From Brachycybe producta (lineage: Eukaryota; Arthropoda; Diplopoda; Playtdesmida; Andrognathidae): a DNA stretch of 64,000 bases. Position 1 is the stretch's first letter; each line of letters opens with the position of its first letter. Under the pieces are notes generated by a model. That model searched no databases and was not told where the DNA came from. It was given only the letters and a program-made list of their open reading frames with translations. A program made the position numbers and the translations under genes. The stretch lies in contig JAUPFP010000020.1 of NCBI GenBank assembly GCA_036925085.1, positions 3,218,995 to 3,282,994 of the forward strand, read 5' to 3'. Positions 17,301 to 60,600 of this stretch are shown here, piece after piece.

Positions 17301-20300
17301 AAACTTAAGGTAAACCAAATTGCAGACCCTCAACTTTGGGAGTTGCCTCTCTCGACGCAAAAAGCTCGTAATCTCTAACGGTTAAAAATTTTTTTTTTAG
17401 ATTCAAGACCTTGCCATTAGATGCATTCAACGAAATGTTCGCAAATTTATGGCGATTCGCAGCTGGCCGTGGTGGCGATTGATGGTCAAAGTGTTGCCCT
17501 TACTGAACGTCCATAGGACCGAGGAGGAACTAAGGCAGACAAGTGTAAGTCACGATACGATACAAATGCGGAATTTTTTATGGGAGAGAAGGGGGTGGAG
17601 TTTAGCCTGGCTTTTTTTGTACTCAACAACGTATTAGGTCCTGCTAACACACTCAATGAAGTGTTTCACGTACATTTGAGCACAGTTTGAACGTAAACTT
17701 ACTTTTTAAGACTGTGACATGTCTGGTTATCACTTTTAGATTCCATTTAAACACTTTGTGTCGCCACAAAATGTGTTTGTTAAAATTGTTAGATTACTAT
17801 GGGGGTGTTCACACGAGACAACGCCATCGTTTATGTTTTTGCTTGACAGTGGCGAGGGGTGGCGAACAACATCTGTTTGTCAATGGTGATGAAAGTCATG
17901 CCAGTGGAATGATCGGACAGCATATTCCATTGTAGTTCTGTGGTGGTCCCGTGTGTAGGAAGTCGCGTCAAACACTACGTGGCGCCACTTTGTGGTGACA
18001 CAGTCTAAGACTGGGCTAAACACTATTCTAGTTAGCGCTGAAATAATGTGTTCCTAGACAAACAACGTTTAGTTGTCGAGATGGATTTGCAAAAAGTGGT
18101 CAGCATGTTGCCGAAACCGCGACCATTCGAGTCGACTGCCAGCGCCTAGTGTACTTCAACGAACTACAAAAATGTGTTCGGATAGATTCGACTTTTGAGT
18201 GATTGGTTTTCAGGCCAGACAACGACCTTATTTTGCAGTCCGTCTCGACCACTAAAAGTCGTTCATGTCATAAATAAATTTGATGGTTTTTTGTGGTAAA
18301 ATTTAGATGTAAAAGCCGAGCCACATGAAGCTGACAAAACAAAAACAAAGCAAAAACTCAAGTGTTTCAAGACGAATGGGCAATAATTCTAAAACATTTC
18401 TGCGACTTTCGTGTTTTGTTTTTGTTTTGTCTGCAATTTCGACAAACTATTCCATGTCCCAGCTCAAGTCAGTATAACCATGAAAAGGTTTGTGTTTTCT
18501 GTCGGTATTATGCAACATTTTGTCAACTGTTTTGTTCTGTGCAGTGTGGACAGTTAGTATTAAAACAACAACAACAACAACAACAGAACAGTTTGTGTAG
18601 TTTATGCAGGACACCTATAGAAACAAAAAGAAAAACCAAATTTGTTTGTGTTGTGGTTTTGTCTTGAGTAACTGCTGACAGTTTTTTGTCTTGTTTTCAA
18701 AATCTGCTTTTTTTTTTGTTTTTTTCAAAATCTGCTTTTTCTGGCTTTTTTTTTGTTTTTTTTTTGTCTTGAACTCATGTTGCACTTTTGTCAGCTTGAT
18801 GTGGACCGGGCCTAAATAACTCTTTATCAAAATAATCCTGATATTTTGGAAAAAGCAACAAAAAAAAATGTTTTTATTAAGACAGATGTATGTACAAGGT
18901 GTTCAAAAAGTAACGCAACCCATGGAGCAAGTATATATATATGTTTATTGTAATCTCCATGGGTTTGCGGTTATTTTTGAACACCCTTTGCTATATAGCA
19001 TGGCACCTTCTCTTCCAGGAACCAAGTGTTTCCAAAATTAACCCACACTCACTTGGTAGCGAAACCTTAAACCCCGGAAGCAACTTTTTTCTTCCTTTCT
19101 TTCTTTGAATAAAATTCGGTTTATATCTGACACTCTGACGTGTTCTATTTTCTGAAACATACTCGGAACATTATAAGGGAAAGGGGGTGGGGGGGGTGGT
19201 GGATACAAAAATATAATTGCTTAGCTAAGCAAACGTTTGATTATACCTCTCTACCCCCACCCCCAATAGTTAACCATTTCGGGGGCCCGAGCCCCATTTT
19301 CAGTTTCTATATAAACTCTAGCTTTTGAATGTCCACATTTAGAATCACTTTTTCGTAAAACCCAGAGAGAGTTTTAATATACATTTAAGACACCGTCTTC
19401 GTGTGTCGTAAAAACTTCATTGGATTTCGAATGCTTGTAGAAAAATAGAAACACATTTCGGCTTTTTTTTTTTTTCTTCCTTTTTCTCTTGCACTCTGTT
19501 TGGATTTGAAAAAAAAAAAAAAAGGAACGATGATTGGTTAGAAATAAACTTCAGAGCTCTCGTTTCTTCTTTGGAAGGCCTTTCTTCACTTAACGAAAGG
19601 GTTGTTTGTGTGTTTTTTTTTTTTTAAAAAAAAAAAACCTAAAAGGCGCAAGTTTGTCCTCGAATACATCTCAGAGAACATCCTCGATCATCATCAAGGA
19701 AGAAAATCAGGCCTCGAGAGTGTGAGAGAAAGTGTTTGGTTTTTTTCCTACTTCTTGTCTCATTTAATATACTAATCTTTGTTTGAGGAGAAATAAGTTG
19801 TTTTTTTCTTCTTTTCTTCTGGCAATACATTTATAAATTTCTGGTTCAAATGCACAGTTTGTGGAAAGCCAAAGTACAAATTTTTACTAATTGATTGGAT
19901 GGTTTTCGAGTGCAGTTAACACCTAACGAAAGCTTGCATACTTGGTGTCTGTGTGTTCTAATGTGTGTCAATCTGTGTGTATGTTTGGAAGATGTATAAA
20001 ATTTGCAATTTTTGCAATATATAGGCTGCGCACAACAGTCTCTCTGGGTGCGTTTGACAGTCGCTTGATATAGTACGACTGTTTATGTCTGTTCGACGGG
20101 CATATGTGGTTGAGAGAAAAAAAAGCACCCGTTTGCCTGCAGTAAAACGTCTTTCACAGCTGATGAAAAAAAAAAAAACAAGCAAAGGCAAAAGTTCAAC
20201 AAGCACGGCGTCGAAGAAGGGGGGTTTTACTGTCCTTCCTGTTAGTTAGTTGCGTTTATGGCTAACGGTGCAGCTTATAGTGTGTTTAGAGCAATTCATT

Positions 20301-29300: not shown

Positions 29301-32300
29301 GGAGGGGTTTCTAGTAAGAATTCCATCTAACAGTGCTCTGTTCCCTGGAGCCAGCAAGCGTTCACAAAGGGGGCAAGGCTTTACTCAGATTCCCAATGAA
29401 GTTCATCCAGCTTGAGGGTCACATTGTCAGAATATACACGTATTTACAGTTAACAAATCTTGCAGTGCTACGCTGTAGCTTTTCCATTTCCGATTAACTC
29501 GAAAGGTATTCCAAATTGGTGAACAATGTTAAAATAGTTTAATTTACTATTTTATAACTGCGAAAGTTTAAAAATAGTAACAAAAAATAACATAAATCCG
29601 CATACAGACCAAAATTAGATGTTCGCGAACTGCTCGGGAACTGTTTCAGAGCTGCTTGCGCGCATAACACGTACACCAAAAAATCAGCGTGTTCGCATGG
29701 CGAACACCTGTGAGTTCGCGTAGGTTGATTGTAATAATTATCAACTGATGAGACGAGCAAACTGACGTCTAGACGGGGTTCTCCGTTCGGCAGATGTTCG
29801 AGAACTAACCCTTTGCTGTACCGCCTCGAGAGCGAACTTTGTACCGGCTCGCGAGCTTTGTCTGTACGCGGCTTTAAGTTACCGGTACTTTTAAAAATTG
29901 GAATTAATCATTCTGCAAAATTAGTCAGTTTGCAAAACGACCAATTCGGTAATCAATCTACACAGAAACTAGAATTTTAACGAATTTGCATCATGCCTAT
30001 ACAGTATATATGCCGATAAGCTTATCGCTTTTCTCTCTCTCTAGGTTTGATAGTGACTTGCACGCAGCTCAAGAAGATGCGAGACAAGAGAAATTAAACA
30101 AAGAAAGGATCCAACGTGAAAAGGACCATTTGATGGGCGAGAAATACACACTGGAGCAAGATATTCAGGTAAGAAAGCATTTTTTTTTATTCACCAGTTT
30201 TATATGATATTGCAAAATATGTTAAGAGGCTACATTGCAAAATTATTTTGATAAATCTCCGCAAAGAGCGCTCCCATCGTTTTTCTATTGATCCCATAGA
30301 CCCAACGTTAAAGAAGAAACGTTAATTTTTAAAATACACAGTCGCGGCAATATGTTTATTTTTCATATTTAAAGTTGTCTAATATTAAGTTTTCAAAGTG
30401 CAATGTGCACCTTAAATATATGCGGATCGAGTGATAAAATGACGAAAAATTGGTAAGTGCACTTCTATTTTTAAAAACTATTTCAAAATCGCGAATTTCT
30501 AACTGTTATGCAAAAAAAAAAATCCATTAAAATGCTCGTAAAAATGCGTAAAAATAATTTTAAAAAAAATCAGCACGTGCGCCAATGTGTTGGCTTCATT
30601 GTGGTTTAATTGTAGTTTTTTAAAATTATTTTTAGGTAATTTTACAAGCATTTTAATGGATGTTTTTCTCTTATTTGGACGTACTCAGTGGAGTTTAACA
30701 TAAGAGTTAGAAATTCACGATTTTGAAATACTTTTTAAAGACAGAACCGCATTTACCAATTTTTTGTCATTCTATCACTCGATCCGCAATATAGTGAAGG
30801 TGCACGTTGCCCTTTGAAAACTTAATATTAGACAACTTTAAATATGAAAAATAAACATATTGCCGCCGTGACTGTTTTATTTTAAAAATTAACATTTTTT
30901 CTTTAACATTTGGTTTATGGGCTCATTAGAAAAACGATTCTAGCGCTCTTTGTGGAGATTTTTGAAAGTAATTTCGTGATGTAGCCTCTTAAAAGCTGAA
31001 AGTGAGCTATCCCAACTTTCATGACAGCTATTCTCATGAAAGAACTATGGCCCATGAAAACGAGGCTTTAAAGTTGAGCCAACAAATTCTAACTGTATTC
31101 GAATAACAGGCAACTTCTAATTGACTGGTTATGTAGTCTGACGTCACATGCTCAACGTCAGACTACATAACCAACCAATTAAAAGTTGCCGGTCGTCATA
31201 ACAAGGGCGGAGCCAACTGAAGTTCTCCCCTATTTCTAACTGCCTGTTATTCGAATATGTCCCATGTCTAGTTTTAAGTAAAAAAAAAAAAATTAATTTA
31301 AAATTAATTTATTTTCTCATTCTGAGAAAGTTAACATCCCTCTCTCTTCTTCTCTCTCTCTCTCTCCGGAGAGAGAAAGAGAGAGAATCAAAAGTGGGGG
31401 AAACACGTCTTCCGAAAAACAGCCCTCTATTATTAATTTGTATAGTTGGTTATTTTTGTAATATTTGTAAATTTCTAGCATCCCATCACCCCTCAGACTT
31501 TTTCTCAGGTGTGTTCAGTGGACTATTCCTTTCCACCTGCCGCGACCCTATCAATTGTTTCTCTCCCCCTTGGAAACCCCCCCCCCCTCCCCTTGCTTCT
31601 CCTCCCCTAATTCATTCAGTCATATCTCCACGACTGAAGTGGGCCATCAGAGAAAGAGAAGAAGAAAAAAAAATACCCTGAGCTCGAGAGTAGGAATCAA
31701 AGAGAGAGAGAGACACGAGCAACGTTTTTTTTTTCCTCTCTTCTTTCTCTTGTTTTAAGTTCGATCGAACACAATTCTCAATTCAATATCTAATTATTAA
31801 TTTTCTCCAGAAACTCTGAATTAAGTTTTTTTTTTTAAAAAAGCAAATTTATTGTTGTTGTTGTTTACTTTGAAAAAAAAAAAAACAACATTTATAGTCA
31901 AGTATTAATATCATGGTGGATATTGTTTCGGATAAACCGGTGCATTCGTTATTATTTCCGATTTATAACGATTGGAAATCTAACAAACCAAAGGTAAAAT
32001 AGCTGTTGTTTTATTTACAACTTTATAATCTAAACAAATATGAAGTTGCCGATTTAACGTTTATTTTTTATATATAAAATAAACTTTGTTAGAAACTAGA
32101 ATAGTAAACAAATGAGCTCTTAAAAGTAATTACAAAATAAACTATATAAGTTTTCTATATAAGTTTGTAGATGTCAATAGTTAGCGTTTTCGTGACGTAA
32201 AGTTGACGATTTAGTTATTTATTTGTTTAAAAAAAACTTTGAAGTATTTGCATTTAAAGTTTCCTAAAAAAAAATAACTGCTAATACAACTAAAATAGTA

Positions 32301-35300
32301 AATGATTTAGTTAAAAATTAGAGGTGGGACGAATTCCAAATTTTTTCGAATCCGAATTCTAAAAGATTCTCGAATCTGCCGAATCTCTCGAATCCTTCAA
32401 TATAAGAATCCTATATTATTCATTAAGAAGATACAAATAAATGAAATAACATTAAATATTAAATTATTAATAATAAAAAAACTAGTGTGGCTTCACTCAG
32501 GGTCACTGCCACAAGGTGATCAATTGGTGATCCGGATAATCACCAAAATTGCAATAATCGCAGGGTTTTTTTTGTTAGTGAACGCCGCTTCTATTGGACG
32601 TCAATGGAGTTAAAACTAATTTTTACCAAAGTTTCTAACAGTTTTTTTAGGTTAGGATTTGAAAGATTCGAAAGACGGAAATAACAACCCGCAAAGATTC
32701 GAGTTTTCGAATCAAGAATATTTTTTAAGATTCGCTGGATTCGAGGATTTGAAGTAGTAATTAAAAGTAATTTCATGATTGTCTTTCGAAATAAACTTTT
32801 TCTAGAAATTTGAAAATGTCAATAGTTAGCGCGCTTTCGTGGTCTTTAGGGCGCGTTCAGACTACTCGTGCTTGGGCTTGTGTCCCTTGTTGACCTTGTC
32901 GGGCTCGGGGCTTGCGCTCTTGTCAACTGAGGGTTCAGTTACTCGAAAAGTTACTCTTGTGGATCCGATGAGCAACGAAGAAGTTTTGATAAGCAATTCA
33001 AGTTTTATTATCACGCACTCATTGTCGAGAGAAACACCATGAGTACAGCGAGTCAACTAAACTGTGCTCGTCCCAGTCTAATGACGTTCAAGTCTTGACG
33101 AGCACCTCTTTGATGTATCGCTGCTCGCGAGTCCGTCCGCATTACTCGAGCTTGTCGACGAGCCACCTCACTGAGCCCGAGTATAAGCACAAGTAAGTCT
33201 GAACGCACCCTAAAAAGGTAAAAATAATGATTTACCTTTTTTAAAATAAGTAGAAAATTTTAACAGTTCGCTTTTTTTTGTGACTTAAGAGACTACATCG
33301 CAAAATTACTTTGAAAAATGTCCACAAAGAGCGCTAGCATCGTTTTTCCTATGGAGCCCATAGACCCAATGTTAAAGAAAAAAAACGTTAATTTTTAAAA
33401 TAACAAAGTCGCGGTGGCAATATGTTTATTTTTCATATTTAAAGATGTCCAATATTAAGTTTTCAAAGTTCAATGTGCACCTTAAATATAATGCTTATCG
33501 AGTGATAAAATGACAAAAAAATTGGTAAGTGCGGTTCTATTTTTTTAAAAATATTTCAAAATCGCGAATTTCAAACTCTTATGTTAAACTCCATTGAGTA
33601 AGCGCTCCTAAGCAAAATACATCCATTAAAATGCTCGTAAAAATACCTAAAAATATTTTTTAACAACCCACAGCGAAGCCAACACATTGGCGCACGCGCT
33701 GTTTTTACTCAGGTTTTTTAAAATTATTTTTTAGGTATTTTTACCAGCATTTTAATGGATGTTTTTTGCTTAGGAGCACGTACTCAATGGAGTTTAACAT
33801 AAGAGTTACAAATTCTCGATTTTGAAATAGTTTTTAAAAATATAACCACACTTAACCAATTTTTTGTCATTCTATCACTCGATCAGCATATCTATTTAAC
33901 GTGCACATTGCACTTTGAAAAATCAAAACTGGACAACTTTAAATATGAAAAATAAACATATTGCCACCGCGACTGTGTTATTTTAAAAATTAACATTTTT
34001 TCTTTAACGTTGGGTCCATGGGCTCAATAGAAAAAAGCGATGCTAGCGCTCATTGTGGAGATTTTTCAAAGTAATTTTGCGATGTAGCCTCTTAAACAAA
34101 GATGATGAAAAGTTGACCATTCAGATTCTTTTCCACTAAAAAAAAAACAATTATTTACAATCAAAGTTTGTTAAAAGCTAGAATGAGTTAAAATATAAAT
34201 TTCACCATATCTTTCAAAGTAAACTATTTTTCTCATGAAAGTTAAGATAGTCCCCTCGACCATATCTTAACTTTAATGAGAAGAAAAAAAAAGTTTATTT
34301 TGACAAACTTTGATTGCCAACTTTCATCATCCTTGTTTAAGAGGCTAACGTCGCAATATTACTTCGAAAAAATCTCCGCAAAGAGCGCTAGCATCGTTTT
34401 TCTATTGAGCCCAATAGACCCAATGTTAAAGAAAAAATGTTAAAATTCACAAAATTCACGTGCAGTTTGCAGCAATGCAAAACGTATTTGTCAATGACTT
34501 GTTATTTTCTCCTGATTGTAATTTCACAGTTTATCACACTTTTATCAGCTTAAACCCTGTCTCTAGAATGTGTTGAAAATCAAGATAGTCATAATATTTG
34601 ACAGCATCAGTTTTTGTTTTCTGAGAAGAAAGACAGAAACTAATTGTAACATCTCTCTTCATTGGGCCTGTTTACAAGGGACTACTTAGTATCGATGCAT
34701 ATATACAGTATGTCCTCGTATATGCAGAGGCTCCATTCCACTTCTTTCTCACATTGCAAGACGATTTATTTAAAGAGACCATTATCTCCAGAAATATCTT
34801 TTCAAAATATTGTCAAGACATTTAATTAATACCTTGTACAGACATGAGTTAAATGAATTCAAATTAAATGTGTTTAGGTGAATTATACGGAAGCCAGTTA
34901 AGGACATGAACCAAATAAAAATCCACTTTCAATTATTAATATTTTAAATTGAAATACTAAATCAATCATTTTGTCAATAGTTTATATAAATTATATTTAA
35001 GTTATTAACTCAATATTTTCAGATTATTAACTGAATAAATTGAATTCGACAATATTGTTTGTTGGTCCTTAACACAGGGCTCTGTAAAACACGTTTATTA
35101 TTTAAATGCATTTAAATTATCAGTTGTGTACTAGGTATTACTCAATGATTGTGAAAACGATTTTTAAATTTTAAAATAAGTCAATAAAACCATACAAAAC
35201 TTAAAAATGGAAGTAACTTTTCCTGAGTCACCAAACGCGACGCCATTTTAAATTTCCAAAAACGAAAGTCTCCCCCACTTCTCCATTTTTGTGGCAAAGG

Positions 35301-38300
35301 TTGTCATCTCCCATTTCCAGAATTCCTTAACGAAATATAGGTATTCCCTATTCATGTTCAACTCAATACAACCTTCCATGTGGGGAATAATTCAAATATT
35401 AAATCCATAGTACTTTGGAATGAAACTTGTAATGTGAGCTGGTGATCGCAACACATCAGGATTCGAGTAGAGGAGTAGACTTTGGGGGGGGGTTTTTTTT
35501 GTTGCCAGTGTCTGTTGTTGGGTGGTGCATCTAGCTGATAAAGTCCATTTATAGGAAGTCAACTGATTTTTAATTTTTTAAATTATATCAATGACATTGT
35601 TTGGAAAAAATGACACGTGGTGATTGTCCTAAACCGCAGTCCAGTGATATTCGTAAAGCACTATACATGGGCAGGGCTGACCACTCTAAGAAAATTAGGG
35701 AGATGTTTGCTAGGACAGATTCATATTCTTGTTCTTTTTTTCCTAGACTTATAAGACAATGGAACTCCCTTCCTGAAGAAGTGGTGAATGGGGATAATTT
35801 TGTTTTGTGGGATTGACAATTGTATATTCATTTTGTTTTTTTACATATGTGCTTGACAATGCTTAATGCGGCATGTGGACTTTTATGACCCTCTGCCATA
35901 GGCCTATTTGGCTGCTAGCAGAGTACTAATTGTAATTGTAACTTATTTTAAATTTTAAAAATCGTTTTTGTAATCGTTGAATACAATACGTTCGAATCAT
36001 GCTAATTTGCTCGACCTATGGTTAGAATTTTCCAAATAACTTGTGACTTATGTCACATTTTAACAGCTCATAGTTACACTAAAAAAAGAAACTACAGTAA
36101 ATATCACGTGATATATGAAATATTTGAATCCCTGGATATCTTTAATTTGGTTGATGCTGACCTCAAAATATTCTTCCAAAGTTCCAATTGTCTAGCTGTG
36201 ACCTTTGCCTAAAATATACTGCCTCCCTCTCCCCCCCCCCCTCCCTCCCTTTGTGCTTCCTGTTACACGTATTTGTCAGCAAACAACACACACACACACC
36301 TTTTATATTTATCACCTTCATAAACTGAATATAAATTTTGTACCTGTCACAATTATCGTTATCACTTATCAGATCACTTGTTTTTATTTTGACATTCAAA
36401 ATTTCTAATGTACGGAGCCCTGTAAAGGTCATACAGTGAAAATAATTTTTATTATAGTTGACACTTTTTCTGTCAATTGACACTTTTCTTCCTAACCTAA
36501 CCTAACCTTTGACAGAAAAAAGTGTCAATTTGACAGCAAACAAAGTATCAATTGACAGAAACAAAGGCGTCAATTGACAGAAAAAAGTGTCAGCTGTATG
36601 ACCTTTACAGGGCTCCGTACTATGCGCCCAGAAGGGAGAGAGAGAGAGAGAGAAAATATCACAAACGTTTATTTTAAGGTTCGTCCACACAGATTGCAAC
36701 AAGTGGAGACATTTCTGTTGCATAATTATGTCGCCAAAATTGGGTAGTCCACTTTGGGCAATAGATGGACAGGCAGTTCTGCCCAGCACTAAGACTTCGT
36801 TTGTCCCAAACTTTTATGAACGTCAGACCAAATATCAACCAATTAGAAACTGACGTTCCTCATAAAAGGGCGGGGCATGTGACATCAAACCAATTAGAAA
36901 TTGATGAACTGCCTGTATAGATGGCGCCAAGTGAAACGCAATTTATTGTCGAGCACTTATTGCAAGTGGCAAATTCGTTTGCGCCGCCCTTTTATGAGCG
37001 TCAGACCAAATATCAACCAATTAGAAATTGAAAAGGGCGAGGCATGTGACGTCAGACCAAATAACAAGCCAATGAGACGTTGCCATTCCTCATAAAAGGG
37101 CGGGGCAAACGACTGTATTCTGCTGAGCACACTTGCCTGTTTCAACAGTTGTGCATTTTGTAGAATTTTCACACATTCAGTCAAAAATTGAGCACTCTCT
37201 TAGTATCCGTCATGTTTTGTTTGTAGGCTAAAGTTGTTTGAACACAGGAAGTGACGTATTTAACCATTCACCTAATGTGATTAATCACATTGTGTCAATG
37301 CAGTTGAGTTAACATGAATGAATTTAACCATGGTTAACATTACCACAATTTAAACATGGGTTAATGTAACCACATTTGTTTCTACTAGAAAGTTAACTGT
37401 GATTAACTTTTTAACTTCAGTTAATTTTTTTTTAGTAGAAACGAGGTATAAGCGTCGTCTGCTTAAAATATATCAACATGCAAATGATTGTGCTACCCCT
37501 CTAACAGGCATCTCTGCCCAGTCCTAACTTTTCGTTTGCCCCGCCCTTTTATGAGCGTCATCAATTTCTAATTGGTTACTTGGTCTGATGTCACATGCCC
37601 CACCCTTTTCAATTTCTAATTGGTTCTCATTTGGTCTGACGCTCATAAAAGGGCGGGGCAAACGAAAATTTAGTGCTGGGCAGAGATGCCTGTATCCCTA
37701 CCGTCTAGTTTCTAAAAAAGAAAACATATTGAAGCTTCTCTTCATTTTGCACCTGAAAGCGAGGCGTTTACACTTACAAACCACCTTCATTAATAATTGT
37801 GCCCTGATTAAATGTGTAAGTCACACCCTGTATCATCATCATCATCATCATCATCTATCACCACAACTATACCATTCTCGATAACAATAATCCCATTGTT
37901 GCAAATGATATAACTTCTTCTGTAATTGTTAATTATGGAGCGGAGTAATTAAAAAAAAACTAACATCTGATTGTTGTCCCTATAATGGGTCTAAGAACAA
38001 AGTTATTTGCTCACAATTTATCTATTGTTTTTTTGTTTGAAATGTGTTTTATTTCAAGACACTAATGTGAACAACCAACAAAACAGTAAAACAATTAGAA
38101 AATTAACCTCAATTACAGGGTGTTCTAAATTATAATCCTTACTTACTCTGCACTATGATTGTGTACCATTGGCAGTGTATAATTATACTAATTATAATAG
38201 GATTAATTAATAAAATAATTATAATAGGATAATTTCATGGGGGGGGGGGCGATTCCCAGCACCACTACGTGGGTATAAGGCGCCCTTGTGCAAAAAAGGG

Positions 38301-41300
38301 GGTACTTCTAGGGCCAGTTGAGATATTTTTAGGGCATTTAAATATTTTTCGACTTTTGGCCGTTTTTTTAAAAAAAGTCAAAGACTTGGCTTTTGACCCA
38401 TTTTTTTGAATTTTAAAAATTCTTTCATTTTTCTGCCATGTCAAGCTTTTGGGGACTTCTGGGGCCAGTTGGGCGCTCCTGAGGCATTTTTAGAGCTTTT
38501 AGAAGATTTAAATATTTTTCCACTTTTGGCCGTTTTTTGAAAAAAAAGCCAAAGACTTGGCTTTTGACCCATTTTGTCGAATTTAAAAAAATTCTTGAAT
38601 CCTTGTGCTTTTCCAAGCTTTTGGGGACTTCTGGGACAATAAACAAAATAGTTCTTCAATGACCATTGGTAGAATTTAGGGTGGTTTCACATGGAACACT
38701 TTGTGGCGCCACATAAAGTGGTCGTTCTTAGCTCATCACTGATTACTACAAGCTCGAATTTCTATACAATATCCACAAGCAGATTGTTTTTCAATTTGTG
38801 ACCCAAGTGCCAGTTGTAAAGTAGGCCTAATCATCATTAGAGTAACCGCGATTATGCTTTTATTTATTTTTTTTCTAATCAAAGAGGCTTTTTAGAGGCT
38901 AGAGGTCTGGTTACTATCAAGTTGTCAACTAGAGTTCTAGCCTTTAACCAATGTTCTTGATTGAAAAAAAAAATATTGTTGGTTGATCTAAAGGGGGGGT
39001 TGTTACTTCATAGTTGGCCCTTTGGCCACACAGATTGAGAAACATTCGGTTGATATTGCATAATAATCCGAGCCCTACTGAATACATAAGATGTTTTCAC
39101 ATGAACCATCGCTACAGGTTTTTTTCTTTCTTCTGCGACACAGTGGCAAAGAGGTGGTTGAGTCCCGCCACAAGTGGCGACCACCAGCTTTTTGTCAATG
39201 ATGATCAAGGTCACACCAGTGGCTCAGACTGATAATAGGCCACTCTTTTTCAATGGTGGTCCGTGTGAAGCAAGCCACGTCAAGCACTTTTTTTCACAGG
39301 CAGTTCTGCCTAACACTAAGTTTTTTGTTTGCCCCGCCCTTTTATGAGCATCATCATTTTCTCATTCGTTTGTTACTTGATCTGATGTCACATGCCCCGC
39401 CCTTTTATGAGGGACGGCAATTTCTAATTGGTTGATATTTAGTCTGACGTTCATAAAAGGGGCGGGGCGAACGAAATCTTAGTGCTGGGCAGAACTGCCT
39501 GTCTTTGTTTCACCACAAAGTAGCGCCACAAAGTGGTCCGTGTGAAGTGATTGAGCTGTTTGAGCAGCAAGCTGACTAATTAAGTCAATTAATAAGCCAT
39601 GTTAAAACTATGAAATTAAACATAAAATTTACAGCCAAATCAGCTTTTTTTTTTCTTTTTTCAAGAGAAAGAAAGTAATAAGCGGGCCATCTTAAGCTAT
39701 AAGAAATAATTCGAGCTCATTAAAATTTTTTATTTCTTGTGAGAAATAACTCCAGATTGTAAACACACGTTCAAAAATGCTGACGAAAAAAAGGCTGCTA
39801 AATTTCAGTCACCCAGAACCTAAAAGTGGGAAAAGTGCTTTTTTTTTTTTCGTCTTCGTCTTTTTTTAAAACTTGAGTGAAATCTTTAATTGGATTTTTT
39901 TTTAGGTCTTCGTGTGAAAAGGAAAAGTTCGAAGGAGGAAGGAGATTAGCCATTTGAAAATATGGTTTTCATTTCTCATTTCCTATTTTGCATAATAAGT
40001 TCATAACTTCATAAATCATTCTTACAAAAACACCTGGAAAAATTCAGTCTGAAATATATATGGTTTTGAAAGTTAATAACGGAGACTATGGACGACGTGA
40101 CATAATGAGCCATCAGATTTTTTAAAAAAAGTGAGCACTTGCTCCTGAGCATGAGCTAATAAAGCAAAAGGTAATGCTTCTGAGCCCACAGTGTGAGTAT
40201 TTGTTTCAGCAGCTTGAATATTTACTCAGTACTTGGAGCAAATGCACCAAATAGTCGAGCACTTGCTAGAAAAAATTGAGTCTGGTCAGAATCTCCGCAA
40301 AGAGCGCTAGCATCGTTTTTCAAATGAGCCCATAGACCCAATGTTAAAGAAAAAATGTTAATTTTTAAAACACACAATCGCGGCATTATGTTTATTTTTC
40401 ATATTTAAAGTTGTCCAATTTTGATGGTTCAAAGTGCAATGTGCACCTTAAATATAGGCTTATCGAATGATAGAAGGACAAAAAAATTGGTAAGTGCGGT
40501 TCTATTTTTAAAAAGTATTTCTAAATCGCGAATTTCTAACTTTTATGTTCCTCCTTCCATACTCCATTGAGTATGCACTCGTAAGCAAAAAAAACATCCA
40601 TTAAAATGCTCGTAAAAATAATTTTAAAAAACCAGAAAAAATTTCAGCACGTGCGCCAACGTGTTGGCTTCACTGTGGTTTAATTGTTTTTTTTAAATTA
40701 TTTTTACGAGCATTTTAATGGATGGTTTTTTTTTCTTATTTAGGAATACTCAATAGAGTTTAACATAAAGAATTAGAAATTCGTGATTTTGAAATACTTT
40801 TTAAAAATAGAAGGACACTTACCAATTTTGTGTCATTCTATCACTCGATCAACATATATTTAAGGTGCACGTTGCACTTTGAAAACTTAATATTGGACAA
40901 CTTTAAATATGAAAAATTAAACATATTGCCGCCGCGACTGTGTTATTTTAAAAATTAACATTTTTTTCTTTTCACATTGTGTATATGGGCTCAATAGAAA
41001 AACGTTGCTAGTGCTCTTTGTGGAGATTTTTCGAAGTAATTTTGTGATGTAGCAAATGGTATAATCGTTTTCTTTATTCGTACATAAATGAGCAAATGCT
41101 CATGCTCCAACTATTTGTATAGGAGCAATGATATTTTTTATTACCTTTTGCTTACGCTCACGAGCAATTGCTCGTTTTTTTTTTTTCATATGGTCCAATG
41201 AGTTATAAACTGAACAAGAATCGAACTGAATTCAGTTTCATCTCTTGGCCAGTTTGGATTCTTATTGAGCTTGAGTCTTGTCTCGTACCGGGTTTGTGTG

Positions 41301-44300
41301 AGAAGCTGCCTGATGCCTCTGTCTAGCTTGACTCTTGTTCAGTTTGGCCCTTTTTATGGAGTTTAGCTACTGACTAAGCTTGGCGCCTGTCCAGTTTAGC
41401 TACTGCCTATAGTTTGATCCTAGTCAAGTTCTTCTGTCCACTTTGGCTCCTTATTAAATTCGGCTCTTGTCCAGTTTAGCCTTTTATCCAGTTTGATTTC
41501 TGTTCAGTTTAGCGACATTACAGTCTAGTTTTATGGTCCTGGCACACATGACAGGGGTCGGACTGACGGCCGTCACCCAGTGGAGGCACTGCACCGTTCA
41601 ATGACATGTGTCTGTTCACACAACAGCGTGCCGTGCCATGACAGGACAATGCATTGGCCCTGCGACTGGCCCCAGTGGATATTGTCATGTTCCTTCTTTT
41701 CTCGGTCACGGTCCTGTCTTGAATTGCAGATTAGAAAAGGGGGGGGGGAAGGAGGTGTTTGCATTAATTATTAAGTTATTAACAAATGGAAGCCCCGTCA
41801 TTGGGCACGGTCCGATCAAGTGTGTCCTAGACAACCGAGCCGAGGCAATGCCAGAACGCGGAAATGTCGCTCGGACCAGTGTGGTTTCCAGATTATTGGG
41901 CCGAGACAGGGTCATGTGTGCTGGGACCATTATCCTTGTAGAATTTATCTCCTGTCCAGTTTTACATAGGAAAGTTTTGACCCACAACTTGACTTCTTTG
42001 CTGTTTTTGACGAAGTTCGTAACAATAAAACACGATCTAATCAATTTTGTATTTTATTCAAACAGAACATGAAGTTGGAAATGGAAATGAAAGACGAGAA
42101 GCTCGGAGCTCTGACTCGAGAGTTGGATGATTTGACGTTTGGAAACAAAGGAGATGAAGAAGTGAGGCCTTTTTTTTTCCTTTGCGTATTATGTTAAAAG
42201 CTGTTCCCGTAATGAACCGATTTGTAAATCGTATTTTTTCCCCCGCTAATCAGATCGCTCAACTAAAACGAGGAAAACACGAACTTCAACTAAAATTAAA
42301 AGACCAGGAAGAAGAACTGGACGATTTGGCCGGACAAGTTCAGCTGTTGGAACAGGCAAAGTTACGACTCGAGATGAATCTGGAGAATGTGCGGAAGGAA
42401 TATCGAAAGGAACTTTCTCAGAAAGAGGAAGAGATTGAAGAAACACGAGCAAGCTGTCAAAAGAAGGTAAAACTAACATTTTTCATTGTTTTAGCAATTC
42501 TTTTTATAATCTATATATAAAGACGGAGTACTTCGTCAACTTTCGGAGGCCGACAGCGACAATGAATGTGTCAAAATAGAAGAGCTCAAAATGTAGGCAT
42601 GGCGTAAAGTACCACTTTCTTAAATTTCACCCCAAAAAAACCTGGCCCAACAGGTCAAAATAGGTCAGATTGTGTGTGTGCGCCACCTGGCGGCCTTCTG
42701 CGCAATTGCAAATGACGTTACCGCCTCCCCAAAATCAAAAGCCTAGACTGCGCTCTCATCATTTTAATGCAGGCATTTAGAAATCGGGACGAACAGAAGT
42801 TGGCTCCGCTCTTTTAATGACGACCGGCAACTTCTAATTGGTTTGTTGTGTGGTTCGACGTTGAAAAGGGCGGAGCATGTGACGTCAGACTACATAACCA
42901 ACCAATTAGAAGTTGCCGGTCGTCATAAAAAGGGCGGAGCCAACTTGTGCTCGTCCCGATTTCTAAATGCCTGTCATTTTAACTTCAAATAATTTTTCCA
43001 TTTGTCGAGTGTGAAGGGTATCCACTAGTTAGTATAATTACATGTGGTTCCGGCCTCTCGAGGTCTGGGACGTCTTCGCACGAATCCATTTAGTAAACTG
43101 GCCATTGGGAAAATGTGATTCCTCGTACTAAGAAACTTTGAAGTTTTGCAAGCTCGCCAATAGTGATACCTACTCGCAGCGCTGTAACTAGCTAATTTTG
43201 TGCCCCAGTGTCTGCGCAGCGCTTTGAGCTTTGCATTCAAGGCAAGTGCTTCACTCGCCATGCCCTCGTCACAGCTCTGCCCACAGCAGATTTACCGTTT
43301 TTGCGGCAAAACGGTAGACAATCGAATTGAATCGAAAGACTTAAAATTGTATGTGGGCTTAAGAAAGTTGCATTTCAAGTGAAATTCCTGGAAAACACAT
43401 CCGATTACTGGCATTCGGCTCCCGTTCAATCATTGTGACCCGTCTCCATATTCTGGAATTCCGCATAAATGGAACTTCAGTCCAATTTTTTTTTTTGGGC
43501 GTTTTCTTCCAAATGTCTGTTACGCCTCCCCATAAATATTACGGTCTATTAATAATATTTTATTTTGGTTTTGTTTAGCTCAAAATACTCGAACACCAAC
43601 TTGAGACAGAACACGATGACAGACAATCTCTGATAAGAGAAAAACACGACCTGGAACGTAAACTTTCCGACCTTCAAGACAGACCCGTGGTAAACCACGA
43701 TGCCGATACGGTCCATCGTCTTCGTAAGGATTTGAAACGTACAAAAGCCCTCCTCAAAGACGCTCAGATTATGTTAGATCGAAGCAGAGAAGAGAATCCG
43801 TCGAAATCTGTTATCAGGCAGTTAAAGAACCAGGTAAGACGAGAGGCTACCATTACGACACTTAAAAGAGAATCATCAGTTTTGACTCCTGTGTTTTTTA
43901 ACGTTTCAGCTCGAAGATGCCGAATTTGCGAGAACGGCGGCCATCAAAGCGAGACAGGGAGCCGAGCTCGAGCTTCAGGAGGCCGTGTCTCAGGTGGAGG
44001 ATACGTCCAAAGCGAAACACGAACTCGAAAAGAAGCTACAACTCGTCTTACGAGAAAAGAACGAACTTCAGGCTCACGTCGAAGAAAACGAAGAGGAGAT
44101 GTCCGAAGTGATGCGCAAATACAAGGCGGCTGTTTCTCAGCTGTCGACCGATCAGATCCAACTCGGAGAACTCGCATCTCAAGTGTCGGACCTCGAGGTC
44201 GAACGCAACATGCTCAAAGAGCAACTGGCCGAAATGAGCGGCAAAGTGGAACAGCTCGAAGGAGAGACTGTTAGTTCTCACGAACAGAAGAGGCTAGAAC

Positions 44301-51632: not shown

Positions 51633-54600
51633 CTATTTGAATAGAAATAAGTCTTGTTTCAAAAGTTTGGAAACAACTAATGCCGAGGTCACATTAATCA
51701 CATAGAGGTGGCAACGGGTACGACCGAACCGTTTTTTACCAGGTTCGGAACCGGTTTAATCGGTTTGTGATTCTCTGGAAACCGGTTCTGATCAGTTCCG
51801 TCGATCTTGACGAAACGGTTCAAACCGGTTCCCAATATACATTAGCAGATTTATAACTAAAAACCTAACGGACACACCTTAAAGTCACAATAAGTAATTT
51901 TACCCATAAAGCTGAGTCGTTTAGACTTGTTTTCGCCTGTTGCCAAACGGAGCTTAGCGCAATCACAGGAGGCTCCAGTGGATAATGTGTACTGATCGCC
52001 ACGAGCGCAGTTAATACCGCTGTCAAAATAAAGAATTATCATTATTATATTAAAAAGCTTTGTGAAGCTACGAAACATGTTGGGGGCACCTTGAGAACAC
52101 CTAGTAATCATGGGATAAGATCGCCTTTTAAGTGTTTTTAGAGCGCTTTTTCGCTTGTTTTGCATCTGGTGGTGGTGGTGGTGTTTTCAGAGAGTTTGCC
52201 ACGTGCACGCCAATAATAAAATTTCATATGTATTAACCACTTTGCAACCTTTTACGAGCATTAGACACACCAACATGCACGTGCGGCATGACTCCACAGA
52301 CACAACGTTAAGCGAAATTTGATGTTTCCAAAAAACATGGTCACGATTCTAGCCACCTTTATGTCTTTTAAGTTGAATTTTAACGATAATTAACGTTGTA
52401 ATGTCTTCTTCCATGTTGTGGCCACGTATATTAACGGCAGTTTATTGGAATATATTTAAAGGCGTTTTTATTTTATACAATTTTGAATTATGCTAATTTG
52501 CTTGACCCCATGTTAAAGAGACCATTTACTTCAAAAAAGGTCCATTTTGCTAATCACCTTTCGGTTCTTTAATAGGCTACATCACTAAATTACTTTGAAA
52601 AATCTCCGCAAAGAGTGCTGGCATCGTTTTTCTATTCAACCCATAGACCCGATATTAAAGAAGAAACGTTAGTTTTTAAAATACACAGTCGCGGCGGCAA
52701 TATGTTTATTTTTTATATTTAAAGTTGTCCAATTTTTATTTTTCAAAGTGCAATATGCACCTTAAATAAATGCTGATCGAGTGATAGAATGACAAAAAAT
52801 TGGTAAGTGGGATTATATTTTTAAAAACTATTTCAAAATTGCGAATTTCTAACTCTTATGTTAAACTCCATTGAGTAGCACTTGTGAGAAAAAACATTCA
52901 TTAAAATGCTCGTATAAATACCTAAAAATAACGTGCGCCAATGTATTGGCTTACAAGCGCGTACTCAATGGAGTTTAACATAAGAGTTAAAAATTCGCGA
53001 TTTTGAAATACTTTTTAAAAATAGAACCGCACTTACCAATGTTTTGTCATTCTATCACTCGATCAGCAATATATTGAAGGTGCACATTGCACTTTGAAAA
53101 CTTAATATTGGACAACTTTAAATATGAAAAACAAACATATTGCCGCTGCGACTGTGTATTTTAAAAATTAACGTTTCTTCTTTAACATCGGGTCTATGGG
53201 CTCAATAGAAAAACGACACTAGCGCTTTTTGCGGAGATTTTTCGAAGTAATTTTGTGATGTAGCCTCTTAAGAAAAATTGGGTATGTTCTATAGGTAAAT
53301 TGATGGAGGTTTCGAATTGCAGTTTAGTTGCTAAAGCCATTATTTGAACAACTTTGGTGATCTACAATAGAAACCTCTGCACATGATTATGACACACGTC
53401 ATTATGATGCTACGGAATAGTCCTAGTCAATGTTAAAACAGGTGAAACAACTGGACATGACTAGTAGTCATGTCCAGTTGGTTCACCTGTTTTAACACAC
53501 TGTAGTGAACTTCGAACAAACTGGCCAACGTTTTCAAACACCTCCAACAAATGCACTAATAGGTGTATGAAAGAAAAATTGAAATACCTGATTGTCGCTC
53601 TAATTTGGCCGAAAACACGAAGTGCTTGTCAGTAACCAGTCCATTACTGACAAACCGTGAAACCTGAGGCATGGCCTACGCAAAATAAAATGTAGAAAAT
53701 AAATCTTAAAATTCTTTTCGCATAATAAATAAAATAAACGCACAGTACATTTACTATACATTACGTTAATAAATCTTAACTTGCATTAACCAGCTTTTTT
53801 ATATTTTTTTTTCCTACTACAAGTTTCCAAACAAACTTCGAATTTCGTTTAAATGTTGTTTTTAACGAGCTTCAATACAATAATACTTCGCTTAAAACTT
53901 CCCTGTTTAGCACTGTTTCGTACGCTCGCATCATCGCTCGCATTCATTTACGTAATTCCGACCTATAATGACCAGGTTTAGTGCAGTTTCAGTTAGTGCT
54001 CCACTTTCCAGAAAACTATCCTGGGCGCTTACGGGTGTATTACCATACCTGTTCAGTGCACTAAAAAGTGGACTCTAAACGTTTTTTAAGAGGCTATCTT
54101 GTCACCTCAAATACCATGTTTTATAAAAAAAAAACTTTTATCAACATTTTTTGTGAAATTTTGTAAAAATTTGGAGAAATCTTATGAAAATTTGGGAAAA
54201 TTTGTGAAAATTAAAAAAAAAAATTGTGAAAATTGTAATCCTGAAAACGAATTGTGTTTATAAGAATCTTAATAAATTTCTTGATGTTTATACAGTCGAA
54301 CGTCGATTATCGGAACTAATGTCGGACATGTCTAGTTCCGATAAATGAAAATTCATAAGATCGAACTCCCATTAAAAAAAAAAGTGGAGAAAAGTAAGAA
54401 AAAACCGATTGCAACGATATTTTATTTATTTCCATAAAAATAAATTTATAAAAAAAAATTGGTTCCAATAATTATCGACGCTCTACTGTATGTTGTTAAC
54501 AAAAAAAAAGTTGTGCTCACAATTAAGTTGCCAACCCTGGTCCATCATTGTAAACAATGTGCAATAGAACAGTCACTCTATTGACACTAGTTACACTGGA

Positions 54601-57600
54601 GTGATTTGATTCTATCAGTGTATATCTCCCACATACAGTAGTAAGGCACCCATAGAATTTTTTTCAACATTATTTTATGTTTCTTGACGAAATTAATCAT
54701 TTTTATCTAATAACCTCTGTTCATCTACGGAAATTAACATGCCTGCTATTTCAAACGTTTTTTTTAAATACAGTAGAAGGAATCATAATTAAGTTATGCA
54801 ATCCATCCGTGGATCGACAGTATATTTAAAGCGCTTATTGCACGAAACGACTAACCTTACTATGAAACGACTAACCTTAAACACAACACGTTAAATGGCT
54901 ATAACAAACAGAAAAAAATCATCACGTGCGCCACTGTGGTTTTTTAAAATTAATTTTACGTATTTTTACGAACATTTTAATGGATTTTTTTTTTGCTTAC
55001 GAGCGCGTACTCAATGGAGTACATAAAAGTTAGAAATTCGCGATTTCGAAAATAGTTTTTAAAAATATAACCGCACTTACCAATTTTTTGTCATTCTATC
55101 ACTTGATCAGCATATATTTAAGGTGCACAGTGCACTTTGAAAACTTAACATTGGACAACTTTAAATATGAAAAATGAACATATTGTCGCGATTGTGTGTA
55201 TTTTAAAAAATAACGTTTTATCTATGGGTTCAATAGAAAACGATGCTAGCGCTCTTTGCAGAGATTTTTCAAAATAATTTTGTCCCTCTTAAGCCTCTTA
55301 AGTTTTGAATAATAGCAAAACGTGTTGACGAACAAAATCTGCTTCGCATCATTATCTTCCACAATTCTTGCAATGAAGGTTGCATTTTACTTTGTACGAA
55401 AACAATTATTTTCAAGCGACCAAAAAGCTCGACACAGACAAAAATAAAAAAGACAAATAAGAAACTAACTTGATAGTCTTCCCAAGTCAAACTTGTCCAC
55501 GAAGTCAAACGAGTCGAAATTTTGGCCGGAAACAATTTCAACGACTCCGAAGGAACAGAAACAATTCCCTGTTCTGTAAATAAACAAATAAAAGAAACCA
55601 CATGGTTTTAGACGTTTTGTAATCATACTCTGCATTTATAAAGCAACATTCAAAAGAAATTAATAGCGTTTTACAAATGTATACAATTTTGAACTAGGTT
55701 AATTTGCTTGACCCACGTTAAAGACCATTCACATTAACAAGGGATTCAGGGAACCCTTTAGAACTCCATTGCTTTAATATACGCTTTCATATATCAAACA
55801 ACCAATTTTCTTTCATTGTTACATGCATATGCACATGTACACGCATGCGCGCATGTGTAAGCCCATGTACACACGTGCGCACATGTGTATGTAGATAAAC
55901 GCACACGTATGTACTCACGTACATGACATAGGTACATGTGATGCACATGCGTTATTCATTTGTAATAGTATAGTTTAAAATGAGAACACGTCACATGTAT
56001 TTTAATATACAAAAATAATAACAGAACATAGAAAGGAACACCCCTCCTAAATAATAGGAATTGTCCCCCTTTCAAATGCTACAACTAGAAAGAGGAAGAA
56101 TCTCGATTTTTTTTAAAAAAAATTTACGTTTTTAAAAAATCGAAATTTCATATATTGGAGCACTCTAAAATTTCAATTTCTTTCCAGATTCATCATCAGA
56201 AAGTGTACATAATTTTAGGTCTGATGACATTTTGTTGTTGGTGGCACCCACAAAAATTTATGACCAAAAACTCAAAATTTGTTTCTAAAAAATTCATAAC
56301 AAAATAACCCCTGGGTAAAATTTTCTGATTTTACGTCAGGAGCATCATATTAGCCCACTGAATCAAATAAAAAACACTCCATGTTCTTGAGTTGTTCAAC
56401 CCACAAACTCGGCCATCCAGACACACAGACATTTTTTTTTGCCCCTTTCCTTGCACGATTCTAAAAAGGTCCATTTTCCTAGCCACCTTCTAGTTCCATT
56501 AAAACATTGTTCAGCTTTAAAGCCATGAATAACACGCCCGCGAGAAGTTCCAGAACAGTTCATGAACAGAATCCGAACCCGGCTGAGACGGGAGTGAGCT
56601 TGTCTCGCCAGTTGACATTTATTACACCTTCGTCGTTTGATGACGTTTTTAATAAAACGCGATCAAGGTCAACTATATGTTGCACCCTTCCCAACCAAGA
56701 ACCCGATGCTATTAAATTGGAGAGGGGAAAAGGCTGGAAAGTGTAGAAAGGGGGGGGGGGGCAGAGAAACGCGGAGGGGGAAAAAAGTGGGAGGGGGTGA
56801 AAGAAATTGAAATGAAAGGAGTAAAAAAGGAACAAACGATGCGCATGCGCACAACTGCCTGTGAATTTTGCTCCCGTCATTTATGACGGGTTACCCCACT
56901 AGTATATATATATCCTTCCGATATTAAGGTATTTTCATGACGTTCCGAAATGTTATTTGGTAGCTAGAATCATTTAAACAACTTTGTAACCATTACACTG
57001 ACTAGTGTCTCATGGCACGTTAAACTCTTAAGGTGTTAGGCTCTTAATATGCTCTTTAGGTATTGAGATAATTTCATGACGTTTCCATTCCCGTTTGGAT
57101 GTGAGGGGCATTTCAGTAATTATGGAATTCCAAAATTGACTTTGTCTCATGGCACGTGCAGTTCCGGAGTGTAACTATTAAGGTAAAATGGCATTTTCGG
57201 AACATTTCGAATTGCCATTTGTTTGGTAGATTCGGGTAATCGGTTAAACTTCTAGTTTTTAAAACACTTATCTTTTGTTAAAAGTAATTTTTAAAAAGCA
57301 GTAAATTAATCTATATTCAAGTAATGTTTTCACATAAAAGCTAGCAGACGATAACACTCAAAACACCTAAAATTTTCCTACAAATAAAACACGCACCCAA
57401 ATCTACGAGAAGTTTCTGCAGAGAGATTCGAGCATCGAGCCGTTCCTTAATCGCATGTATGACCATTTCCATGTGGCTGCAGCTAATGTCCGAAGGCGAA
57501 TTTCCTTTAGAAAGCGTCACGTTCAGAGACGATTCCTTCGTCCCTTGAGCTTGAACGAAGTCGAGTCCGCCTAACCGTTGAGCCCAGACGTACGGACGAC

Positions 57601-60600
57601 CAATCTCCGAAACATACGTCTCAAAATCGTCCATACTAGAGACGACAACAAGACGGTAAAAGTTAATTTCAGACAATATAAGTTATATTTTACCCCAAAC
57701 GTTTTAATTGGTAGTAATTGGCTTTATTCGGCGTTACGAGTCCAAAATCGTCTGGAAATAAACAATCCAAAAGTATGGACAGCGATAAAACATCCCTTAA
57801 AAAGAAACAAAGTTCGAAGCTGAGTAAAAACAAAAAACTGTGTCCGAAATTGTTAAATTGTGATTTTTCTTTCATTCTAACCGAGACGGTGTCTGCATTT
57901 CGCTTGCAAGAGTTAATTCCGTCATAACGGTAATTATGTGTAAAGCGACTAAATAATAAAATCGCAATTTCAATTTGCTGCCATCTACAAAAAAAGAAGA
58001 AGAGATTCATTGAAAAGGATGAAAGACGTTGATTCCTCTCGACAAACAGGAAGTTACCTTTCGCAGTTAGAACGATCGTGACGCAGAGCGGATGCTTCTG
58101 AAGAATTTTCCGCCTTACTTCGGTCAGTTTGTCTGTAGTACTTCGTCTGTACCGCTTCTACGGCCGATAAAAAAACATAAATCCACAACTCGTAACTAAA
58201 CAATTAACGAAGACAAATTGTTTAACGTACGACGCCAACTAATTCCTCCTGATCCGAATCGCCACTATCCTCATCTAACAACAAAAAAACATTAAGGTAG
58301 GTTGAACGTTTTTTTTTTTTTTTGAAACATCATCATGAAAACATTCAAATTGTTTTTAAAACTACAACGGTAGGAGATTAGGCTAAAAGTTTTTTCATGG
58401 CAACTAAATATGTTACAGCAATTCGAAATTTTTTCCATTGACATTTCGTGAAAAAGTATTTCTGACCCTTTCCATCACCAGTCAGTCAGGGCATGCCACT
58501 CATAATCACCAATTTTGATGAAAATTAAATTGTGTGTAGAGATTACAAAATAATTACACCCTTATTTTTTATTTTGCCATATGACCATTATTTCTTGAGA
58601 AAAAAATTCCCAACGTTTGGGTATCGGACGCAAAAATGCATTTTTCTGTAAAATTTTAAAATTCAATATCTCGTAAACCGTAAGACAGATTTGTATGATA
58701 TTTTCAGGGTATAATCTACATAGTATATATCAACACAGTATATATTCATTATTGAATATTCTAATTTATAAATTGGAGAAAAAAAAATTCCCTAAAACGT
58801 TGCGAATTTTGAAAAAATGTGTCTTTTCTGATGCCCTTTATAATGGCAAAGAAAAGCGCCATTTTCACATGAAACACACCAGTGAATTCTGTATTCAAAG
58901 ACGAATTCAGAAATACCAATGAAGTTAATATGTATTAATAAACACAAAAACTACGCTGAAAACAAATAGTACATTTTGCCGAAAATCGTCATTTTCATGG
59001 GTTTTTGACCTTTAAAAAAATAGGGGTCTAATTATTTTGCAATCCCTACACACAATTAAATTTTCATCAAAATTGGTGACTATGAGTGGCATGCCCTGCC
59101 TGACTGGTGATGGAATCGGTCCTTCCGCCTTTTTTTCAAAACTGTCATAAAAAGTTTATTTTGAAAGATATCATGAAAAAACTTTTAGCATTATCACCAA
59201 ATTCACCAACTATTCTAGTTTCTTAAAAACTCGTGGGTGGGAACGAAGAAACCTCTTACGGTCACCTTACGGATAGTTTCATGGTGAAAAACTCAATCAC
59301 TTAAGGTGGCTGGATAGATATTAAGAAATCATCATCAGAGGGCGGAATAAAATGTTTTTATTATTGGAAAATATGTACATATATATGTACTCAAAATGGG
59401 CAAAATATGTATTAAAATATTTTTAAATTCCTAAATATTCTTTAATAAGCAAATAGTCTGTTTAATACTTTTAATTCGTTTATTTTAATTTTCTTAGAAA
59501 GTAAAAATGTTTTATCATCAGAATTATCATAAAATGTAGATGTTAGATAATTGATAGTGAGAGAGCACTTTACTACAATAGGGACTTAGCGAAATTTCGT
59601 ACGAAATTAAGTTTCACGAAATTTATATATTTAAATTAAGTGATTTCGTTTTCGTTTCAATTTCGTTATTGTAGTTAGCGAAGCAACCCAAAAACGTAAA
59701 CGAAATCATTCACCTTTTACGGCGTGCGGTAATTTTTGCCTAATTAATCGCCACTAAGCGTAGATTGTTTTAATTTTTATTGTTCTTTGCACTTAATATT
59801 CTTGCTTTAATCGGAAATCTTTCATGTAGGGTTGGTTATTCTTTTTAAAACGACGTCGTTTTCCATCGACAAAATCCAACTACGAAATAATTTTATAATT
59901 TCGTAAAGAAATGCCTCATTTCGTACGAAATCTTTGTGTTGTAACGAAATCAGCCGGAAATGACGTCAAAATAATGGATTTCGTAAATAAATTTATTTCG
60001 TACGAAATTTTGCTAAGTCCCTAATACTTCACAAGTTACTGTAAAAGACAAATTTTCTTTCAAATAGTAAATGGTTTTGTTAAATTTCATTAACAACTGG
60101 AAAACAGACATAAAATAACTTAACTTTCTTTGTCTTCTTTGTTTCTAACATGTGGTCTCTACTAATTAACCTTATATAAAGTAACTAATGATTCACGAAA
60201 TAACATTTAGATACTTGAAAAATTATAATTTTGTTAGTTTCTTTCCAATTCAGTGATTAATAATGATTGTGATTGGTATAAATATTTGAAATTTGAAAAA
60301 AAATATTTATATGTTTAAATTTCAATAAATATTTACAAAAATATGTGTATTTAAATATTTTCCAAAATATGTAAAATATGTATTTATAAATGTAGTTTAT
60401 TCAATTCCTAACATTCTGAAATGGATGGATATTAAATTTGGGCATGATAGCTGAATGTATTTGGAATATGTTTTTTATAGAATTCCGCCCTCTGATCATC
60501 ATGAATAAACTTGTGCCAATTGGTTGCCACCAATTTTTATTTCTGAAATTCCCCGATTTGTTTCAGTTTTCCATACCAAAGTTGGATATTTTCCAGGTTT

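Follow-up and report, generated by a model that had tools for sequence, protein, structure and literature searches.

A 27-codon open frame that meets a usable donor within a long intron of MYO18 is probably a chance frame

An open frame of 27 codons within a long intron of a MYO18 gene, put forward in an earlier note as the first coding exon of a motor-less rod, probably arose by chance and happens to be followed by a usable donor. We favour this reading because the frame scores -3.3 bits for codon content, because chance would supply 0.14-0.33 frames of this kind on each strand of the intron, and because CT/GA tracts of the kind found nearby rarely precede the starts sampled in this genome. 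On this explanation the frame would sit in a single-copy, microsatellite-rich segment, which may or may not carry regulatory activity, between dispersed repeats of the intron, and would be removed with the intron, which would add no separate product; we infer that no transcription begins at a start of its own. What weighs against chance is the coincidence of phase, donor, Kozak context and in-frame stop just 3' of a GC-richer CT/GA segment, together with a plausible 5'-UTR intron, in what is the sole such structure on the + strand of the intron. Judged from the letters, phase, donor and stop fit a geometry that allows a motor-less MYO18 product. Throughout, the window is the whole 64-kb stretch of DNA that was analysed; feature coordinates within it are collected in Table 1.

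The name MYO18 given to the host gene in the earlier note is accepted because its KE-rich start and its tail sequence resemble MYO18A; we take both to be MYO18A-like, and a KE-rich extension to be typical of MYO18A-alpha. The apparent main coding start (MFHFMKRGDRSDEKERKKKEEKEK..., KE-rich) lies 18.5 kb 5' of the window and is tied to the exons in the window by position. Pfam matches above cut-off place the myosin head (PF00063, 2741-2941 and 8146-8370) and an IQ exon (PF00612, 17172-17309) on the + strand 5' of the intron, and weak matches to Myosin_tail_1 below cut-off fall at 42254-42466 and 43910-44548. The P-loop, within 2741-2941, reads GRSGSGKS; the usual P-loop of active myosins is GESGAGKT, and the MYO18 letters would fit an ATPase that is weak or missing. 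The intron, between 30168 and 42066, is 11,897 bases long; the numbers 19 and 20 for its flanking exons are those of the earlier note, and exon 45702-45873 was assumed from its stop to be the last. Further 3', on the minus strand, the window holds THOC5 (57392-57676 and 61947-62156; PF09766, with the 57-kb piece below cut-off), and genes for an H1-like histone (L014:2026-2595) and H3 (L014:3840-4241), named by eye from their translations, lie ~26-28 kb 5' of the window.

Table 1. Coordinates of the candidate frame, its surroundings and the flanking MYO18 exons (window positions, except in the first line; a dot marks features given without a strand; a slash marks an exon-intron boundary).
Feature	Position	Strand	Basis or remark
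Analysed window	C20:3218995-3282994		64 kb; searches against 295-Mb genome
Other two phase-0 frames in window noncoding sequence	19053-19160, 51878-52165	-	Same criteria as the candidate
MYO18 exon before intron (exon 19)	30045..30168	+	Ends phase 0, CAG/GTAAGA; boundaries by eye
~0.8-kb dispersed repeat, at least 3 copies in intron	30222-30993, 33285-34095, 40290-41053	.	Among 39 scored of 25,332 candidates
CT tract then GA tract, imperfect palindrome	31337..31387	.	Tracts listed from 31340
Possible 5'-UTR intron, prediction only	31509..31810	+	Donor CAG/GTGTGT 5.35, acceptor ttttctccag/AAA 6.2
TCAGTC, Initiator-like hexamer	31616..31621	+	Hexamer match, weak evidence
Second GA tract	31701..31712	.	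Tract scan
In-frame TAG upstream of ATG 31913	31895..31897	+	Sequence
27-codon frame put forward as an alternative first exon	31913..31993	+	ATG to phase-0 donor
Donor GTAAAA, phase 0	31994..31999	+	Donor score
MYO18 exon after intron (exon 20)	42066..42161	+	Phase 0, AAC ATG AAG; own Met is codon 2
Later coiled-coil/tail exons	42254-42466, 43579-43833, 43910-44548, 45470-45597, 45702-45873	+	Boundaries by eye

Much of what had been described for the frame itself is borne out by the letters, i.e. an ATG at 31913 with Kozak-like context (ATCATGG), 27 codons, an upstream in-frame stop and a clean donor, AAG/GTAAAA at 31993, which scores 3.97 and is identical in letters and score to MYO18's own donor at 42466. 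The phase match claimed with exon 20 also stands, the donor at 31993 and exon 42066 both being phase 0, and joining 31913-31993 on paper to the six exons from 42066 to 45873 gave 527 residues and a stop, reproducing the proposed 27 residues on 500 of rod and tail. The donor score, computed with approximate animal frequencies, is a weak filter, since several of MYO18's own donors score poorly (e.g. those at 2626 with -2.9 and 2941 with -1.8); one scored donor, 21305, is probably not a true exon end. The frame's peptide found only itself in the 295-Mb genome, without a second copy, and had no match in PDB at E up to 10 or in Pfam, results that count little because they are expected for any 27-residue stretch.

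The claim of exon-like codon choice, on the other hand, was not borne out. Under a codon model built from 5,209 codons taken elsewhere than MYO18, from loci of the same genome that encode myosin heads or Ras-type GTPases, the candidate scored -3.3 bits and the 13 MYO18 exon stretches tested scored +5.9 to +88.2; none of 188 overlapping 27-codon windows of MYO18 scored as low, whereas 38.6% of the intronic ATG-started open windows of this length (n=370) scored at or above it. Other training sets gave -3.6 (heads), -5.5 (Ras) and -3.9 (all plus MYO18), with MYO18 windows as low again 0/188. For synonymous choice alone over the 27 codons, 9.6% of MYO18 windows fell at or below the candidate and 35.9% of intronic windows at or above it, the corresponding figures with heads-only training being 22.3% and 29.7%; by this measure the frame is ambiguous. 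Ten start-anchored stretches of 27 codons, from nine of the 15 sampled loci and the MYO18 main start, ranged from -0.0 to 12.1, all above the candidate, a comparison that is only indicative because the nine loci come from families used in training and may include false starts. The codon content of the candidate frame looks like that of noncoding sequence, in a 27-codon test whose power is limited because the codons of an alternative first exon can be unusual. A CpG enrichment of the frame, with observed/expected at 2.1, was tried as coding support and dropped; nearby 200-base windows reach 1.9.

How often such a structure arises by chance was estimated by counting frames that open at the first ATG in frame, stay open for 27 codons or more and reach a donor scoring no lower than the candidate's. 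The + strand of the intron holds one, the candidate itself, and the - strand one, which is not phase 0. In 200 simulated third-order Markov copies of the intron the mean was 0.42 frames when phase was ignored and 0.14 for phase 0, with at least one phase-0 frame in 13.5% of copies, whilst the noncoding sequence of the window, candidate included, yielded six in any phase and three in phase 0 over 108,626 strand-bases, i.e. 0.33 in phase 0 for each strand of the intron. Among the six listed frames the candidate's donor scores lowest, which is uninformative because that score set the threshold. With 0.14-0.33 expected per intron strand, chance can explain the open frame and its donor, and a search of the whole window could be expected to turn up a structure of this kind.

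The surrounding segment had been described as a repeat-free stretch with GAGA/CT tracts. Its tracts are present and it is single-copy, 31325-31993 having no other match in the 295-Mb genome save two simple-repeat ones of 34-37 bases. Five of the nine CT/GA tracts in the window fall in 31340-31712, and other sequence from the genome holds 41 in 236,485 bases. A tract within 1.5 kb upstream was found for one of the nine sampled loci with a usable in-frame ATG (two among the full 15), and the 1,038 bases that precede the MYO18 main ATG hold none; on this sample the tracts do not mark other starts of the genome. GC content is 36-45% at 31000-31799 against 23-31% at 30200-30999 and 31800-32799, and also reaches 47-49% at 32800-33199. 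The hexamer at 31616 resembles what we take to be the arthropod Initiator consensus; the motif scan reported the overlapping TCATTC at 31612, and TATA[AT]A is absent from 31201-31995. Taken together, the features of the segment are promoter-like, not diagnostic. Among the 39 scored of 25,332 repeat candidates, dispersed repeats flank the segment at 30222-30993, 31103-31251 and 33285-34095; at that scope, absence of the segment itself proves little. Scans for tandem and inverted repeats gave nothing decisive, and a transposon origin of 31325-31993 is unsupported, the genome search having returned the segment itself and the two simple-repeat matches.

The ~0.8-kb repeat occurs, within the same 39 scored of 25,332, in at least two dozen other places in the genome, mostly at 81-89% identity, and many of these match it in either orientation, as would be the case for an element of long inverted symmetry. 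Elsewhere in the genome, C13:234873-237343 carries four successive matches to the same part of the myosin head (~378-435 of PF00063), each with one TAG inside, an array that appears arranged as in the mutually exclusive exon clusters of muscle Mhc. The mitochondrial genome is a contig (C442) of 15,359 bases and 18.8% GC, read with the invertebrate code, and its cox1 has the look of an arthropod, perhaps a chelicerate. The genes nad4L-nad4-nad5, named by eye, share the strand of cox1, and a pair of similar, oppositely oriented stretches occurs at ~4.8-5.1 and 10.8-10.9 kb. Further copies of cox1 were seen at C1:12697416-12698753 and C17:4027703-4029047, of which the former, at 427.2 bits, nearly equals the 428.5 of the mitochondrial contig and is therefore a recent transfer or an assembly error.

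An internal MYO18 promoter with an alternative first exon, giving a headless rod-only MYO18, is an unlikely reading. Transcription would start between 31.3 and 31.7 kb, perhaps with removal of a 5'-UTR intron, and the 27 codons would be spliced to 42066; the resulting 527-residue headless rod would join dimers of non-muscle myosin-2 or MYO18 as a filler or a brake. Phase, donor, stop and Kozak context fit this, the segment is single-copy, the intron offers no convincing other exon to join, and exon 42066 supplies a second Met. The C-terminal coiled coil of both MYO18A and MYO18B is needed for association with non-muscle myosin-2 filaments (PMC13249394), and the related muscle Mhc gene has rod-only products (PMC3912159, PMC4410989). 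Against an internal promoter stand the noncoding-like codon content, the chance rate given above, a start signature that was not validated, and the acceptor at 42066, which ranks only 11th of the 530 AGs between 31994 and 42066. It is doubtful that a rod with a private 27-residue N-terminus serves as the MYO18 counterpart of myosin rod protein/catchin, tuning mixed myosin-2/MYO18 filaments.

Less probable again is that the frame begins a nested, unrelated gene or a noncoding RNA with its promoter in 31.3-31.7 kb, which would make use of the same promoter-like features and the long intron. Six-frame comparison of + 31913-42067 and - 30240-42067 with Pfam gave no family at cut-off, only PF07759 below threshold, at the beginning of the intron stretch 3' of the frame (E 0.25), and Rfam gave no match at gathering threshold over the whole window. 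On the + strand between exons 30168 and 42066 there is no segment of at least 12 bits by codon score, a value that known MYO18 exons mostly exceed; short or fast-evolving exons would escape both Pfam and codon tests. A coding-like segment of 13.3 bits, without a Pfam match, does occur near exon 42066 at 41597-41716, but on the minus strand. With no Pfam or Rfam family at threshold and no + strand coding segment of at least 12 bits, 42066 is the natural partner if the exon is real.

Very improbable is an alternative internal MYO18 exon, which would be a cassette of 32 in-frame codons (31898-31993) or else a poison exon running from 31811 to 31993. Both joins are phase 0, the score of 6.2 at acceptor 31811 falls inside the range of the true ones, and an in-frame cassette exon is described for human MYO18A (PMC3053589). 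Against this, the acceptor of the cassette, the AG of TAG 31895-31897, scores a poor -7.6 against 5.2-14.0 for the 11 true MYO18 acceptors on which the scoring matrix was itself trained, and its proline-bearing insert would be expected to break the coiled coil. The longer exon, placed after the one ending at 30168, runs at once into a stop (AAA CTC TGA).

Were the rod real, rod-only products would have arisen among class 18 myosins too, besides those of class 2, and mixed bipolar filaments would have a natural regulator drawn from a myosin without measured motor activity. The chance reading carries a caution of its own: in an AT-rich intron of 11.9 kb, finding an ATG frame whose donor fits is weak support for an alternative first exon.

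Among titles and abstract openings, with subscription journals mostly outside their scope, no rod-only MYO18 product from an internal promoter was found. Several myosin products lack a motor, e.g. Lottia Mhc8 (PMC3912159), shrimp LvMYH4 (PMC6537884) and the human MYH16 product (PMC13249394), but these are separate class 2 genes or pseudogenes, whereas the candidate would start inside a MYO18 gene that also encodes a motor. A 110-kDa form of mammalian myosin XVIIIA (Cross et al. 2004), known here by its title alone, is far smaller than the 196-230 kDa forms of MYO18A. MYO18A likewise has alternative N-termini from one gene, the forms being named alpha, beta and gamma in a review (PMC11112018); according to a figure legend of another review (PMC7900500), all known isoforms of MYO18A and of MYO18B carry the motor domain, unlike the candidate rod. 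Of the features of a rod-only isoform, an open, in-phase, non-motor N-terminal exon with a donor was found here, where 0.14-0.33 such exons per intron strand would arise by chance, whilst coding-like content of the unique N-terminal exon was not (-3.3 bits).

The closest parallels come from muscle Mhc, which yields rod-only proteins in Drosophila, as myosin rod protein (MRP), and in molluscs, as catchin (PMC3912159). The earlier statement that Drosophila Mhc has a comparable rod-only product agrees with that paper, which describes MRP (Standiford et al. 1997, cited there) as a motor-less rod with an alternative start 3' of the head exons. MRP, however, is a muscle myosin-2 product found by experiment, whereas the candidate belongs to MYO18, has a separate, distant exon, covers only the last 500 residues and is predicted from sequence; the same comparative study states that MRP isoforms of Mhc are not reliably predictable without mRNA. 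Conservation of the N-terminal exon is reported for catchin, whose long N-terminal exon is found in several molluscan Mhc genes, but not for MRP, and the N-termini of Drosophila MRP are reportedly unconserved. Catchin/myorod differs from the MYO18 candidate in being an abundant purified protein of muscle Mhc with a phosphorylated N-terminal domain; its plan, a C-terminal rod identical to that of myosin preceded by a unique N-terminal domain (PMC4410989, PMC3912159), is the one that the candidate would share.
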